41,935 bases of DNA, taken from positions 1 through 41,935 of the IMG/VR virus record IMGVR_UViG_3300032246_000527. One strand, given 5' to 3'. The notes below the pieces were generated by a model. It was not told the origin of the DNA, searched no databases, and was given only the letters and a program-made list of their open reading frames with translations. Below, piece by piece: positions 34,714 to 41,885 of this stretch. A program made the translations under genes and the position numbers. How positions within the stretch are numbered: the stretch's first letter is position 1; each line of letters starts with the position of its first letter. The DNA is from a virus.

Positions 34714-37239
34714 TTAGGCAAAGCAGTAGCGGGATTCGAGGAGCAGATTCAAGTCCAACTGCCCCTTCTCAGGGAGTACCGCCAGCTTCGGCTTGGTCTT
34801 CTCCGACAACTGCTGTTCGATCTCGTCCCGGAAAGAGGCCAGAACGTCCACCTCCGAATACATCTCCACGAGAGCCTCACGGACAACCGTGTAGAGTTCT
34901 TCGGTATCCGCTGCGGTTGTCGCAAAGGAATCGTGGATCATCCCGAAGGAACGGATCCCCTTCTGGTGTGCGCGGACAACGGTGAGCATCATGTGGGCAG
35001 CGTCACAGGAATGGACGAAGTTCGGGGCGATACCGGAGGATTGCTTACGGCGATCCAGTTGGTCTTTGTCCCGATACATCGTGAGGTACACAAGCTTGCC
35101 GTTGATAGCGGTCTTGACCCTGCGTTTCTCTTGATCCTGATAAGCCTGAACCACAGGAAATCCCACGGGTGTCGTCCAGCGCACCGGTAGTTCCTCCGAA
35201 GCAGCCAGTGCAGCGGCGCCCTGTAGCCAGCGCATAGCCTCGCCAGCCTTTACCAGCACCTTGTTCACAGCAACCCAGATAGCCTTCGCCATGTAGGAAG
35301 CAGCTTGGTAACCATCACCATCGAACGGGAAGTCAGGGCTGGAAACCTTCGCCGGACGTATGATGTCCTCCATGAGCTGTTCTTTGAATCCGTACTCCTT
35401 TGAGCCATACGACAGGGTCATCACCGAGCGTTTGGTGGTCTTACGGGTGATCCCGAACTGCAACCACTGCTGTGCCAGAACCTTCGTGCCGCGTTTGACA
35501 TAGGCGACACCTTCTTCGGTGTGCTTCAGTTCATCGCCGGTTCCATGCTTGGCGTCCTGTTCCGCTTGCTCAATGACTTTCTTTGCGACCATCCCATAGA
35601 CATCCTGAGGGAGTTCCGCTGGAATCAGGTTCACAGCCTTACCACCCACTTCATCCCTGAGCATTGCCGAGAAGTGCTGAATGCCTGAACAGCTCCCATC
35701 CATAGCGATTGGTAGCTTCGAGACAAACGACTCCCCGTACTTCTCAAACCCCGCCCACTCAAAGCAGAAGGCCAAGAACTGCCACGGCTTGTCGATCTTC
35801 ACATCCCCGATACTGGAGCACCAGCCACGGTTGTCGTAAGGATTCTCAGCGATGGCGCAGATTTCATCCGAGTGATCCTGAATCCAGTTCACGCGATCCT
35901 CCAGAGACACCTTGTCCCATCCGGCACAGTTCGCACCGTGGATGGCCAGCCACTTCCAACCCTCAGAACCCAGAGGTTTTCCATTGGCAAACCTGAGGAG
36001 TGCCTTCTGGAAATCTGTGCCCTGTGGATTTAAATGCGGAACGGCATAGATGCGCCCACGGAAATCCAACTGGTACGGCATGTAGATTCTGCGGAATCCT
36101 TCGTAACGCTTGGCGATGTCCAGACCAATCGAGAAGCTGATTCGGTGACCTGTGAACTGCATATTCAGCATATGCACCTTCGCGGCATCAATTCGGTATT
36201 GCTTACGGGCTTCCTCATTCTCCTCAAGGTCTGCCGGTGGTGTCGGGAGTGGTAACCCATGTCGCGGTGGGACACCGGCCAGCTCACTACCGTTATCCCA
36301 AAGAGTCTTCATGACACTCAGGACTTGGCTGTTGATCTGCCAAGCGGTTCTCTGCAAGGCATTCACAGCTTCGTAGATGATGGGCATGTCGGTGTTGGAC
36401 AGCTCCTCCAGATACGCCTTACTGCGAACTTTCACCAGCTTCAGCGGCTTGATGTTCGATGACAGGTAACCACCGTTGTAAGGTGTCGTCCAGTCACGCG
36501 GTTGGACAACCATCGGCTCGTACACAGGGCGCAGCATGGAGATCACTTCGTTCTTCTTCGTGATCCACTCCAGAGTCTCTGCGGTAGCCTTTACGTGCTT
36601 TACCGACTGATCCTTCTCGGTCTTCATGTGGTTCAATTCAACCAGCCCGAGAGTTTCAATGCAGATGTCCAGCATCTTCACCCCAACATGGAGGCGATCA
36701 GTACGCGACCACTTCTCCCACTGGTGGAACTTGTCGGCCTCCCGAACCCCGTAGATGTGCTTGTACTGGTACGCACCGCGTTTCTTAGCGCCATCCACCA
36801 GACGCTCATACTTCTTGCGTTCGGTAGCGCGTATGTCAGAGAACCGTAGTTCGTCTTCGATCTGTGTCCCAATCGTCACGCCGACGAACTGCAATGTACG
36901 AAGGCTTGAAATACCAGACAGCACACTTTTCAAAGTCAGGAAGGCCAGCGTGTGTGAGGGGACATCTTTGGTCTTCTGGTACGCTGCGGAGTTGCGCATA
37001 CCCACTGACCCTGCTGCTGTGGCCACCTTCCATGCTTCAATGGCCTCTGCCAGCTTCTCCAGCCGGTAGGCCAGGATCTGCTGACCGTATGCTGTACCTT
37101 CCTCACGGTTATGCTGGACGGACTTAGTGATATTCCGAAGATACCTTTCGGCTCCTCGTTGCGTCATCTCCTCTTCGAGTCTGAGTTGGACAGCGATCAG
37201 TTCTTCCTGACCGGTTTGTTGTGCTTGGTGTGTAGCCAT
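34714..37239 (-). CDS. gp1: Single-subunit phage RNA polymerase
   Basis: 841 residues (T7: 883), start ATG 37239. It transcribes all middle and late genes from the promoters listed here. Catalytic segments are MDGSCSGIQHFSAMLRDEVGGKAVNL (metal-binding Asp), RSVMTLSYGSKEYGF (nucleotide-selecting Tyr) and MIHDSFATTAAD (second metal-binding Asp). The specificity loop (about K-R-R-V-K-T-A-I-N-G-K-L-V-Y-L-T-M-Y-R-D, before IAPNFVHSCDAAH) has no similarity to that of T7, consistent with a different promoter. It ends FA, as does T7 RNA polymerase. Two phage promoters lie upstream. Confidence 0.97.
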   Translation of the reverse strand: MATHQAQQTGQEELIAVQLRLEEEMTQRGAERYLRNITKSVQHNREEGTAYGQQILAYRLEKLAEAIEAWKVATAAGSVGMRNSAAYQKTKDVPSHTLAFLTLKSVLSGISSLRTLQFVGVTIGTQIEDELRFSDIRATERKKYERLVDGAKKRGAYQYKHIYGVREADKFHQWEKWSRTDRLHVGVKMLDICIETLGLVELNHMKTEKDQSVKHVKATAETLEWITKKNEVISMLRPVYEPMVVQPRDWTTPYNGGYLSSNIKPLKLVKVRSKAYLEELSNTDMPIIYEAVNALQRTAWQINSQVLSVMKTLWDNGSELAGVPPRHGLPLPTPPADLEENEEARKQYRIDAAKVHMLNMQFTGHRISFSIGLDIAKRYEGFRRIYMPYQLDFRGRIYAVPHLNPQGTDFQKALLRFANGKPLGSEGWKWLAIHGANCAGWDKVSLEDRVNWIQDHSDEICAIAENPYDNRGWCSSIGDVKIDKPWQFLAFCFEWAGFEKYGESFVSKLPIAMDGSCSGIQHFSAMLRDEVGGKAVNLIPAELPQDVYGMVAKKVIEQAEQDAKHGTGDELKHTEEGVAYVKRGTKVLAQQWLQFGITRKTTKRSVMTLSYGSKEYGFKEQLMEDIIRPAKVSSPDFPFDGDGYQAASYMAKAIWVAVNKVLVKAGEAMRWLQGAAALAASEELPVRWTTPVGFPVVQAYQDQEKRRVKTAINGKLVYLTMYRDKDQLDRRKQSSGIAPNFVHSCDAAHMMLTVVRAHQKGIRSFGMIHDSFATTAADTEELYTVVREALVEMYSEVDVLASFRDEIEQQLSEKTKPKLAVLPEKGQLDLNLLLESRYCFA

Positions 37240-37244
37240 AGCGT

Positions 37245-37391
37245 TATCTTCAAGTTATCGAAAGGAAAACATAAGACTGTCTTTGGATAGTCTTTAGATG
37301 TCCTAAGATAATCTTTATATAGAATAACTATAAAGAATAATATCGTAAGACATCTGAAGAATATCTATAGTTTGTCTTTAGATAATCTTTA
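37245..37391. other. AT-rich leader with TCTTTAGAT repeats; candidate replication origin
   Basis: About 150 bases that are clearly AT-rich, containing TCTTTAGAT twice, variants TCTTTGGAT, TCTTTATAT and TCTTTAGGT, and an imperfect palindrome around 37320-37345. It directly follows two tandem phage promoters. The T7 primary origin has the same make-up: promoters phi-1.1A and 1.1B followed by an AT-rich stretch. Here it lies upstream rather than downstream of the RNA polymerase gene. Confidence 0.5.
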
Positions 37392-37417
37392 GGTCTCCCC
37401 GTTTGGGCAACCTATGG
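37392..37417 (-). promoter_or_regulatory. Phage RNA polymerase promoter, second of a tandem pair
   Basis: Minus strand CCATAGGTTGCCC then AAACGGGGAGACC. The first transcribed bases GGGGAGA resemble T7 GGGAGA. Points at the RNA polymerase gene, so the enzyme probably amplifies its own transcript. Confidence 0.9.
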
Positions 37418-37430
37418 AGTTTGGCTTGGT

Positions 37431-37455
37431 CTTAACCATTTGTGCAACCTATGCC
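37431..37455 (-). promoter_or_regulatory. Phage RNA polymerase promoter, first of a tandem pair
   Basis: Minus strand GGCATAGGTTGCA then CAAATGGTTAAG; three to four changes from consensus, so probably weaker. About 14 bases separate it from the next promoter and 28 bases from the tRNA-like sequence. Confidence 0.8.
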
Positions 37456-37483
37456 AAGCGGTAATTAAATCCATTACCACAAA

Positions 37484-37525
37484 GCAACCTAAATCAAGCG
37501 CGTCTACCAATTCCGCCACGCCCGC
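37484..37525 (-). other. Probable attP core: 5' half of a tRNA-Leu(UAG) gene
   Basis: Minus strand starts at 37525 as GCGGGCG-TG-GCGGAATTGGTAGACG and continues CGCTTGATTTAGGTT. This gives an acceptor-strand 5' side, U8-G9, a leucine-type D arm and an anticodon loop with TAG, as in bacterial tRNA-Leu. It stops inside the anticodon arm: the 3' strand expected after AGGTT (TCAAG-type) is absent. It begins 70 bases after the integrase stop. Phage genomes carry such tRNA pieces as attachment sites; cyanophage P-SSP7 has a comparable tRNA-Leu piece beside int. Confidence 0.88.
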
Positions 37526-37574
37526 ACAACCAGATCAATAACTTAGCTGTGCGGTGTGACAGAGTAAAGTGCCA

Positions 37575-37604
37575 CAAGTTGTCTCAGAATTGTCTCAAGT
37601 TGTC
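37575..37604. repeat. Direct repeats at the end of int; possible arm-type integrase sites
   Basis: Plus strand CAAGTTGTC occurs at 37575 and 37596, and TTGTCTCA at 37579 and 37590. The repeats straddle the integrase stop codon, 50-80 bases from the tRNA-like core. Arm-type binding sites of tyrosine integrases often look like this, but proof is lacking. Confidence 0.45.
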
Positions 37605-38626
37605 CCTGTGACAACCTTCAGAACCGGCTTCTGTTCTGCAAGTGTTCCCTCCAGTTTCTCCATAGCCTCCATGAGATTCTCCGGTGCCAGATGTGCGTAC
37701 CGGAGTGTGGTCTGGATGTTCTTGTGACCCATCCATCTCTGAACCACTGCCAGCGGCACTCCACGCTGAACCAACCGGCTGGCGCAGGTGTGCCTGAGCA
37801 TGTGGACGACAAACTGAGGATCGTCAGACATCTTCAGGGAGGTCTTCAGGACATCCCATTGATATCTGATGGTTGCCGCAGTGAGATCGTCAAATATTCT
37901 TCGGGAACCCATGCGGTCAGCCAGAATGTTCTTCACCCGAGTTGTCGCAGGGACGCTTCGGGCATCGTCATTCTTCGTCTGTCCTGCGTGAAGATGGAGC
38001 TGCCCATTGAAGAAATCACGAGGCTCCAGCCCAAGCAATTCGGCCTTCCTGAAGCCGGTATCGACAGCCACGGTGATGAAATCAGCCAGCGAGTCCAGTC
38101 CCAGATGTCGGGCAGTAGTGAGCACTCTGGTTTCTTCTTCGTCCGACAGCCAGCGTATCCGATGTTTCCCTTCCTTCCTCCGAGGAAACTTAGGGAGTTT
38201 CTCCAGCCAGCCCTGATCTGCCGCCATTGTCAGCATCGTGGATAGGTTGCTGATCTTGCGGTTTATCGTTGATCCTGAGTTGCCCTGATCCTCCCACTCA
38301 AAGATGACCTCAGTGATACTTTCGGTGGTAATCTCGGACAGCTTGGTGTCCTCCCCGAACGCCTTCAGGTTTGACTGAGCGTTTATCTTATGGGTACTCG
38401 CGGATTTATCCTGAGACCACCGAAGCCTCCACGTCAGGTCAAATGCGTCCCTGAGCGTTTTTTCTGAGGTGGTTGGTACGTTACCCTTACCAGCCCCACG
38501 TTTGCCCTGTAGAGCCTCGTTTAGAGCCTTCTCTGCGTCTTCCTGTGTCTTGAATGACTCACGGTAGCGGTTTGCACCACTGCCGACAGACACAAGGAAG
38601 CTGTCACCGCGCTTGTAGATTGGCAT
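37595..38626 (-). CDS. int: Tyrosine-family site-specific integrase
   Basis: 343 residues from ATG 38626. An N-terminal arm/AP2-like part, a SAM-like core-binding helix bundle (about residues 55-145) and the C-terminal catalytic domain. Catalytic residues: Arg193 (DTGFRKAELLGL), probably Lys218, His275 and Arg278 (VVHMLRHTCAS), His301 (WMGHKNIQTTLRYAH) and the nucleophile Tyr310. All are present, so the enzyme should be active. It is followed by the tRNA-Leu fragment. T7 itself has no integrase; its presence points to a temperate life style. Confidence 0.96.
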   Translation of the reverse strand: MPIYKRGDSFLVSVGSGANRYRESFKTQEDAEKALNEALQGKRGAGKGNVPTTSEKTLRDAFDLTWRLRWSQDKSASTHKINAQSNLKAFGEDTKLSEITTESITEVIFEWEDQGNSGSTINRKISNLSTMLTMAADQGWLEKLPKFPRRKEGKHRIRWLSDEEETRVLTTARHLGLDSLADFITVAVDTGFRKAELLGLEPRDFFNGQLHLHAGQTKNDDARSVPATTRVKNILADRMGSRRIFDDLTAATIRYQWDVLKTSLKMSDDPQFVVHMLRHTCASRLVQRGVPLAVVQRWMGHKNIQTTLRYAHLAPENLMEAMEKLEGTLAEQKPVLKVVTGTT

Positions 38627-38632
38627 AAGTGG

Positions 38633-38956
38633 TTACCTCCGTGTTGTTACCTTGTTGATAAAACCCTGTCCCTTAGTGGTCAGAGTGACAATCTTACGCC
38701 TTCTCTCCAGTGGGTCTTCAGTCGCCTGAACGAGTCCCAAGCCTTGCTCTCTGTGCCTGCCTTGCTTGCCCAGTGCAGCCACGTATCGGGAGCACGAAGC
38801 CTGTCCGATCTGAGCCTTGCGACAGAGATTAGCCATCGTGATCCCTTCGCTCCCTGCACCGGCGACAATGAACAGCACGTGAGCCTGTGGTATCGGCATT
38901 TCGGAATCCAAAAGCCGTATCGCGTGGATTAACCTAGTCGCTTCCTCGGTAGTCAT
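38633..38956 (-). CDS. MarR-like winged-helix DNA-binding protein next to int
   Basis: 107 residues, start ATG 38956, ending 6 bases ahead of the integrase start. I-T-M-A-N-L-C-R-K-A-Q-I-G-Q-A-S-C-S-R-Y-V-A-A-L-G-K-Q is the helix-turn-helix, D-P-L-E-R-R-R-K-I-V-T-L-T-T-K-G the wing: the MarR arrangement (D-x-R-x-x-x-x-x-L-T-x-x-G). Candidate repressor, or a regulator of int or excision. No separate CI-type repressor or excisionase was found, so this is the best candidate for the lysogeny regulator. Confidence 0.85.
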   Translation of the reverse strand: MTTEEATRLIHAIRLLDSEMPIPQAHVLFIVAGAGSEGITMANLCRKAQIGQASCSRYVAALGKQGRHREQGLGLVQATEDPLERRRKIVTLTTKGQGFINKVTTRR

Positions 38957-39900: not shown

Positions 39901-39985
39901 GTTGGACAGTGTGAACCGCTTGTGCGGCAGTGGAAAAACTCGGATGCCCTACGGAGTACCGTAAGACATCCTGATTTTTACACTT
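39901..39985 (-). other. Intergenic hairpin element, copy 6 (twin of the element at 41675)
   Basis: Minus strand GGATGTCTTACGG / CCGTAGGGCATCC, 13-bp stem with two G.U pairs, followed by GAGTTTTTCCACTG and a second small hairpin (CCGCACAAGCGG). About 60 bases are nearly identical to the element at 41675-41735. Confidence 0.65.
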
Positions 39986-41674: not shown

Positions 41675-41735
41675 TTGAACAGTGGAAAAACTCGGATGCC
41701 CTACGGAGCACCGTAAGACATCCTGATTTTTACAC
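41675..41735 (-). other. Intergenic hairpin element, copy 5 (twin of the element at 39901)
   Basis: Minus strand GGATGTCTTACGG / CCGTAGGGCATCC stem followed by GAGTTTTTCCACTGTTCAAC and the ribosome-binding site of the 41660 gene. Differs at only a few bases from the element at 39901-39985 apart from the missing second arm. Confidence 0.65.
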
Positions 41736-41885
41736 TGAGGTGAGCATGGATTTCAGTAGTTCGCTTTGTTTTTCCCGAGCAGCAGCAGCAGCATAAGCAG
41801 CATCAGCAGCAGCAGCATAAGCATCAGCAGCAGCAGCAGCAGCAGCAGCACGACCACAGAAGACGCCCCAGAGAATTGCAGTCAC
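41730..41885 (-). CDS. Short Ala-rich protein or end of an Ala-rich gene
   Basis: The frame ends in REKQSELLKSMLTSV and a TAA at 41732-41730; upstream is the same GCT-repeat tail as in the gene at 1-652. A start could be GTG 41885 (M-T-A-I-L-W-G-V-F-C-G-R, then Ala repeats; 51 residues) but no ribosome-binding site precedes it, and a stop in frame lies 18 bases further upstream. Either a separate small gene with a duplicated tail, or a chimeric join at the contig end. Confidence 0.45.
   Translation of the reverse strand: MTAILWGVFCGRAAAAAAAADAYAAAADAAYAAAAAREKQSELLKSMLTSV

Follow-up and report, generated by a model that had tools for sequence, protein, structure and literature searches.

A MarR-type regulator, an integrase and a tRNA-Leu piece ahead of the RNA polymerase gene of a T7-like phage

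T7-like phages are commonly taken as strictly lytic, yet some persist silently in a chromosome, and loci such as the one described here make the way in which they do so testable. The cyanophages P-SSP7 and S-TIP37 integrate at tRNA-Leu, at low frequency, and stable lysogens were not obtained (PMC8776855). In Pseudomonas phage LUZ100, the marR and integrase (int) genes are cotranscribed from P3, and most of these transcripts stop at terminator T4, directly downstream of int. Synthesis of its RNA polymerase (RNAP) starts by readthrough from P3, repression of the RNAP promoter by MarR was proposed, and lysogens were not obtained (PMC10134795). Here we describe a related locus, and compare it with prophages of its relatives.

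The locus upstream of the RNA polymerase gene

The window, by which we mean the whole stretch of DNA analysed, is an IMG/VR virus record of 41,935 bp. Its gene content, carried on the minus strand, is T7-like and includes a T7-type RNAP and T7-like replication and structural genes. Both of its ends share a 95-nt direct repeat (1-95 and 41759-41853) that lies inside a CAG/AGC-rich stretch, and as such the record may be a near-complete genome whose terminal repeats were broken in a low-complexity gene. In the direction of minus-strand transcription, a MarR-type gene is followed by int, the 5’ half of a tRNA-Leu(UAG), two phage-type promoters, an A+T-rich leader and the RNAP gene. The initial annotation had proposed that int, a tRNA-Leu piece, tandem phage promoters and RNAP follow each other on one strand, and this is indeed the order found.

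The int gene (37595..38626, minus strand) was also rightly called a complete tyrosine integrase: its 343-aa product matches Pfam PF00589 (5e-21) and PHROG phrog_1 (6e-62), and the catalytic residues are all found, i.e. R (TGFRKAE), HxxR (HMLRHT), H (MGH) and Y (TLRYAHL). Between int and RNAP sits the putative attP core (37486..37525, minus strand), which corresponds to nt 1-40, the 5’ half, of tRNA-Leu(UAG) and reads toward RNAP; blastn-short against fetched tRNA-Leu genes gave a 95% match over nt 1-40 (E = 3e-14). This piece had been described as a 42-bp tRNA-Leu half. The half is real and belongs to tRNA-Leu(UAG), but its length is 40 nt, because the last two nucleotides (GC) mismatch the fetched tRNA-Leu(UAG) genes. 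No complete tRNA was detected in the window by ARAGORN.

A host tRNA-Leu identical to this site had been suggested as a check on integration, and none was found among 399 Burkholderiales and 249 Pseudomonadota genomes: at up to one mismatch the 40-nt site is present in none of the former (0/399), while 14 of the 249 latter carry a match, each with two mismatches. An exact 32-nt part of the site gave no matches in IMG/VR, and a prophage of the window phage was found neither in the sampled genomes nor in IMG/VR.

The gene for the T7-type single-subunit RNAP (34714..37239, minus strand; 841 aa) is well supported by PHROG phrog_414 (1e-286) and Pfam PF00940 (5e-118), in agreement with its earlier assignment. 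A scan for phage-type promoter sites of the ATAGGTTGC[A/C]CAA[A/G][C/T]GG-like type, allowing up to three mismatches to one copy, returned eight in the window, all on the minus strand, where 0.09 would be expected by chance. Two of these eight sites, at 37436..37452 and 37399..37415 (minus strand), stand directly upstream of RNAP and bear out the tandem promoters of the first reading. They are followed by the A+T-rich RNAP leader (37240..37394, minus strand), in which a repeat search revealed self-complementary repeats of the AAAGATTATCTT type. Folding gave z = -4.2 for window positions 37240-37530 and z = -4.5 for the 170-nt RNAP leader, and the leader is structured in many relatives also, to a varying degree. 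These repeats are possibly an operator array or RNA hairpins. We considered them as promoters as well and rejected this, since the promoters are the ATAGGTTGC elements upstream and the leader repeats are self-complementary.

Six nucleotides upstream of int, on the same strand, lies the gene for a 107-aa MarR-type winged-helix regulator (38633..38956, minus strand), which the initial annotation had overlooked and which likely opens a marR-int operon. Its product has a match in phrog_9665 (‘transcriptional regulator’, 8e-19) and, weakly, in Pfam MarR_2/HTH_27; its AlphaFold model has a pLDDT of 85.4, and Foldseek matches in the PDB are MexR, MepR and MarR. Both int and RNAP occur in 31 sequences that we collected, the window among them; 28 extend far enough upstream of int, and a MarR-type gene is present in 23 of these 28. 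In the phages collection the regulator finds matches in only 38 records, mostly pelagiphages and cyanophages, plus LUZ100 and the Limnohabitans phage YIMV22061. The initial annotation had assumed silencing without a classical repressor. With a MarR-type gene preceding int both here and in most of the sequences compared, and with the published LUZ100 proposal, this is unsafe as a premise. A comparison of the region upstream of marR with the RNAP leader of the window, in search of a shared MarR operator, gave only weak 15-mers with three mismatches, from which no operator could be defined.

Two further observations concern the surroundings of marR. In 15 viral relatives, a conserved orphan gene of ~82-107 aa lies back to back with marR (minus strand; L009 3711-3980, L022 3731-4039, L017 3752-4075, L024 2282-2584, L006 3723-3989 and about ten more), an arrangement that resembles a divergent switch. 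This gene has no Pfam or PHROG match and no homologue in the window, and the structure of its protein was set aside at a model pLDDT of 53. Furthermore, the early region of the window upstream of marR contains two copies, 98% identical, of a 57-nt terminator-like hairpin (39928-39984 and 41680-41736), with a 13-bp stem and T-runs on both strands.

Could the cassette be a relic in a phage that has turned lytic? The lack of an identical host site in the sampled genomes would fit such decay, as would the lack, in the window, of the terminator that is seen in relatives (see below). However, Int is full length with its catalytic residues intact, the regulator is unbroken and its model is a confident one, and the 40-nt site matches one half of a tRNA cleanly; we regard decayed lysogeny as very improbable. 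In our reading, it is rather probable that the marR-int operon, the attP in the tRNA-Leu piece, the phage promoters and RNAP together make up a lysogeny cassette, that of a T7-like phage of temperate type, with MarR as its main lock.

Where the genome opens in prophages of relatives

Scanning one genome per species for RNAP yielded 11 loci. In G001, G003, G004 and G1147, int and RNAP share a strand and are located at opposite ends of the prophage, with ~36-41 kb between them. That of P. putida HAI-2 (G001) is a full-length chromosomal prophage, with an RNAP 60% identical to that of the window: RNAP is at 600446-602971, int at 639010-640029 with marR in front of it, and 55-bp att repeats at 599808 and 640301 lie in tRNA-Leu(UAG). 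G1147 has RNAP at 120371-122827, int at 161519-162520 and a 13-bp core at 119992 and 162662; the Parvibaculum prophage (G004) has RNAP near 151.5 kb, int at 112772-113755 and a 17-bp core; and G003 has RNAP near 44.2 kb, int at 81258-82232 and its core at the tRNA-Leu anticodon, the region in which the att cores of the related prophages are found. A deleted remnant in another Pseudomonas (G665) still shows the split, with marR-int at one end and, at the opposite end, tRNA-Leu together with a fragment of RNAP; marR is likewise at the int end in G001, G002, G003 and G1147. The contigs of G002 and G595 end just outside RNAP and int, which is consistent with the same opening and is no proof of integration. 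As such, the predicted opening of the circular genome between int and RNAP is upheld by four embedded prophages and one remnant of relatives, but not by a prophage of the window phage itself.

This last point would also suit a phage whose integration is transient, i.e. a rare event in an essentially lytic infection that does not lead to a stable silent state. P-SSP7 and S-TIP37 provide the example, integrating at low frequency without stable lysogens (PMC8776855), and P-SSP7 shares the gene order, the regulator family and the tRNA-Leu 5’ half with the window. Relatives that are closer by RNAP identity, however, such as the 60% identical G001 of P. putida, are full-length chromosomal prophages, and we consider merely transient integration unlikely for the window phage.

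A second T7-like group, consisting of G899, G734, G820 and the inducible phage G11, has int and RNAP at the same end, and T7-like lysogeny thus does not seem to require the split. The Pseudomonas prophages of this group (G899:C1 3429451-3468312, G734:C18 and G820:C35) carry an integrase of ~490-500 aa at the RNAP end. In G899 the terminase gene is found at the far end of the prophage, and no att repeat was identified in it.

In G1147, G004 and G003, the host tRNA-Leu is disrupted by integration, and joining the flanks restores a tRNA-Leu gene (G1147:C7 119965-120004, 161413-161497 and 162662-162719, L148 and L149; G004:C10, L084 and L085; G003:C217, L082 and L083). Their cores are 10-17 bp, and next to int or att each prophage has a complete tRNA-Leu of its own, identical in anticodon to the broken one. 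No tRNA-Leu is present at the RNAP-end junction in G1147 and G004, and no other intact copy of the broken tRNA-Leu was found in G1147, where the remaining matches are 77-82% identical and of unassigned type. In tRNA-dependent lysogeny, a short core leaves the host tRNA broken, and the phage brings a complete tRNA of the same isotype (Guerrero-Bustamante and Hatfull 2024; PMC10865867). Judged by sequence, the three prophages look like instances of it, bearing its defining features, and in the literature searched we found no report of tRNA-dependent lysogeny in T7-like phages. These features are absent from the window: it has no complete tRNA, and its core, at 40 nt, could restore the tRNA.

Keeping the integrated polymerase silent

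So what could keep RNAP silent once it is integrated? We propose that Int would recombine the phage tRNA-Leu(UAG) piece and its host counterpart, with the exchange probably in the anticodon region. After this, marR-int and RNAP would stand at opposite ends of the prophage, as observed in the relatives and expected for the window phage. At the int end, the phage 5’ half and the host 3’ half would form a whole tRNA-Leu again, in which case its transcription must come from the phage side; a search of the window spacer on that side of the tRNA half found no sigma-70-like site. For its expression, integrated RNAP would depend on its own phage promoters and on any transcription that arrives from the host tRNA promoter. 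A self-driven RNAP would constitute a positive loop that host transcription would have to prime. The MarR-type protein may keep this loop from starting through the promoter or the leader of RNAP, along the lines of the LUZ100 proposal, and the split would help in that it separates RNAP from the early and marR-int promoters, reducing accidental supply. We consider it most likely that the main lock is repression of the self-driven RNAP by MarR, with the int/RNAP split as its helper; such repression is a published hypothesis and not a demonstrated fact.

The initial annotation had placed the integrated RNAP out of reach of the early host promoters, but integration does not deprive RNAP of a host promoter where the split tRNA faces it. 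There, the host tRNA promoter replaces the early promoters upstream of RNAP; in G1147, a TTGACT-N17-TAAAAT box and the host tRNA-Leu 5’ half are located directly upstream of RNAP. In such relatives, transcription from the host tRNA promoter would be stopped by a terminator that the phage itself carries between att and RNAP. Terminators are found on the RNAP side of att in G001, G004, G1147, LUZ100, P-SSP7 and much of the tRNA-Leu(GAG) group, and most of the examined relatives with an RNAP-facing tRNA carry one between tRNA and RNAP, making it a common though not universal element. In the window, three scans recognized no intrinsic terminator between the tRNA half and RNAP, even though the tRNA half faces RNAP; Rho-dependent termination may operate there. 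Without a recognizable terminator, the repressor would be needed even more.

These findings bear on a further claim of the initial annotation, that where attP lies could by itself silence the prophage: integration would remove RNAP from every host promoter that feeds it, and no repressor would be required. Split prophages do exist, G001, G004 and G1147 have a terminator between tRNA and RNAP, and LUZ100 RNAP is started by P3 readthrough; with an attP between int and T4, if that is where it lies, P3 would be carried to the opposite end on integration. The claim is weakened, however, by the presence of the regulator gene, by a tRNA piece that in the window faces RNAP with no recognized terminator to hold back the tRNA promoter, by cyanophages of the same order that integrate without stable lysogeny (PMC8776855), and by the T7-like prophages that keep int and RNAP at one end. 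The attP position is unlikely to be the sole silencer, and a gate that works by position without any repressor strikes us as quite improbable.

More tentatively, integration at a tRNA-Leu core between int and RNAP may itself be a transcriptional switch in this phage group, in which the early/marR-int promoter upstream of RNAP is swapped for the host tRNA promoter, a phage-borne terminator on the RNAP side of the core blocks the latter, the polymerase loop remains off until excision brings back the original order, and MarR serves as a second lock; the window would then be a terminator-less variant that relies on its repressor. An exchange of promoters at RNAP by integration, with the phage-borne terminator staying with RNAP, was not found in the literature searched; the source of the MarR model lay outside this search. 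That source, the paper cited by the LUZ100 authors, is reportedly Boeckman et al. 2022 in Virology, and it may already discuss prophage ends. The LUZ100 model itself treats T4 readthrough from P3, and the effect of integration on this readthrough is not discussed in the accessible text (PMC10134795). What matters here is that RNAP comes to lie at one border of the integrated phage, in many cases with a host tRNA gene upstream of it and a terminator of the phage in between, and that the MarR-type gene lies at the opposite border. In an integrated relative, repression and position should be separable.

Comparison with known systems

The nearest annotated phages are Bordetella phage vB_BbrP_BB8 (Gyeongsanvirus) and Limnohabitans phage YIMV22061, both with int directly upstream of RNAP; identities to the window are 49% versus 41% for int, and 65% versus 54% for RNAP. 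Unlike the window, BB8 yielded neither a tRNA piece nor a MarR match, and YIMV22061 carries a complete tRNA-Leu(UAA) in opposite orientation. Pseudomonas phage vB_PaeM-G11 and the prophages G899, G734 and G820 resemble the window in being temperate, T7-like and equipped with a tyrosine integrase, but that integrase is longer (~490-500 aa) and distant, and int and RNAP stand at one prophage end with early genes between them.

The Prochlorococcus phage P-SSP7 (Autographiviridae, Tiamatvirus) has a MarR-family gene (phrog_9665), int, a tRNA-Leu 5’ half on the RNAP strand and RNAP, as does the window, with a regulator ~30% identical to ours. It differs by a terminator-like hairpin between tRNA half and RNAP, and by a TATAAT box before the tRNA half (L114 5768-6038). 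This box lies ~20 nt upstream of the tRNA-Leu 5’ half, as if it were a promoter for the rebuilt tRNA. Since P-SSP7 has the same regulator family, yet such cyanophages gave no stable lysogens, the regulator does not guarantee lysogeny. The HTVC019P-type pelagiphages similarly have a MarR-family regulator, int and RNAP consecutively, but their integrase is distant (~32% in HTVC200P); by eye, no tRNA-Leu piece was identified in the HTVC019P spacer.

LUZ100 shares with the window a MarR-family gene, int (37% identical), a phage promoter and RNAP, in the same order. In contrast to the window, it carries a complete tRNA-Leu between marR and int (OP329100.1 2658-2743, L153), a place matching that in G1147, terminator T4 before RNAP, and in the spacer, between int and T4, only the short core-like AGACTTAAAA. 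Its authors suggested that the tRNA-Leu was recruited by imprecise excision (PMC10134795); tRNA-dependent lysogeny offers another reading. The cassette is already known from P-SSP7, pelagiphages such as HTVC019P, and LUZ100, and the window adds another member.
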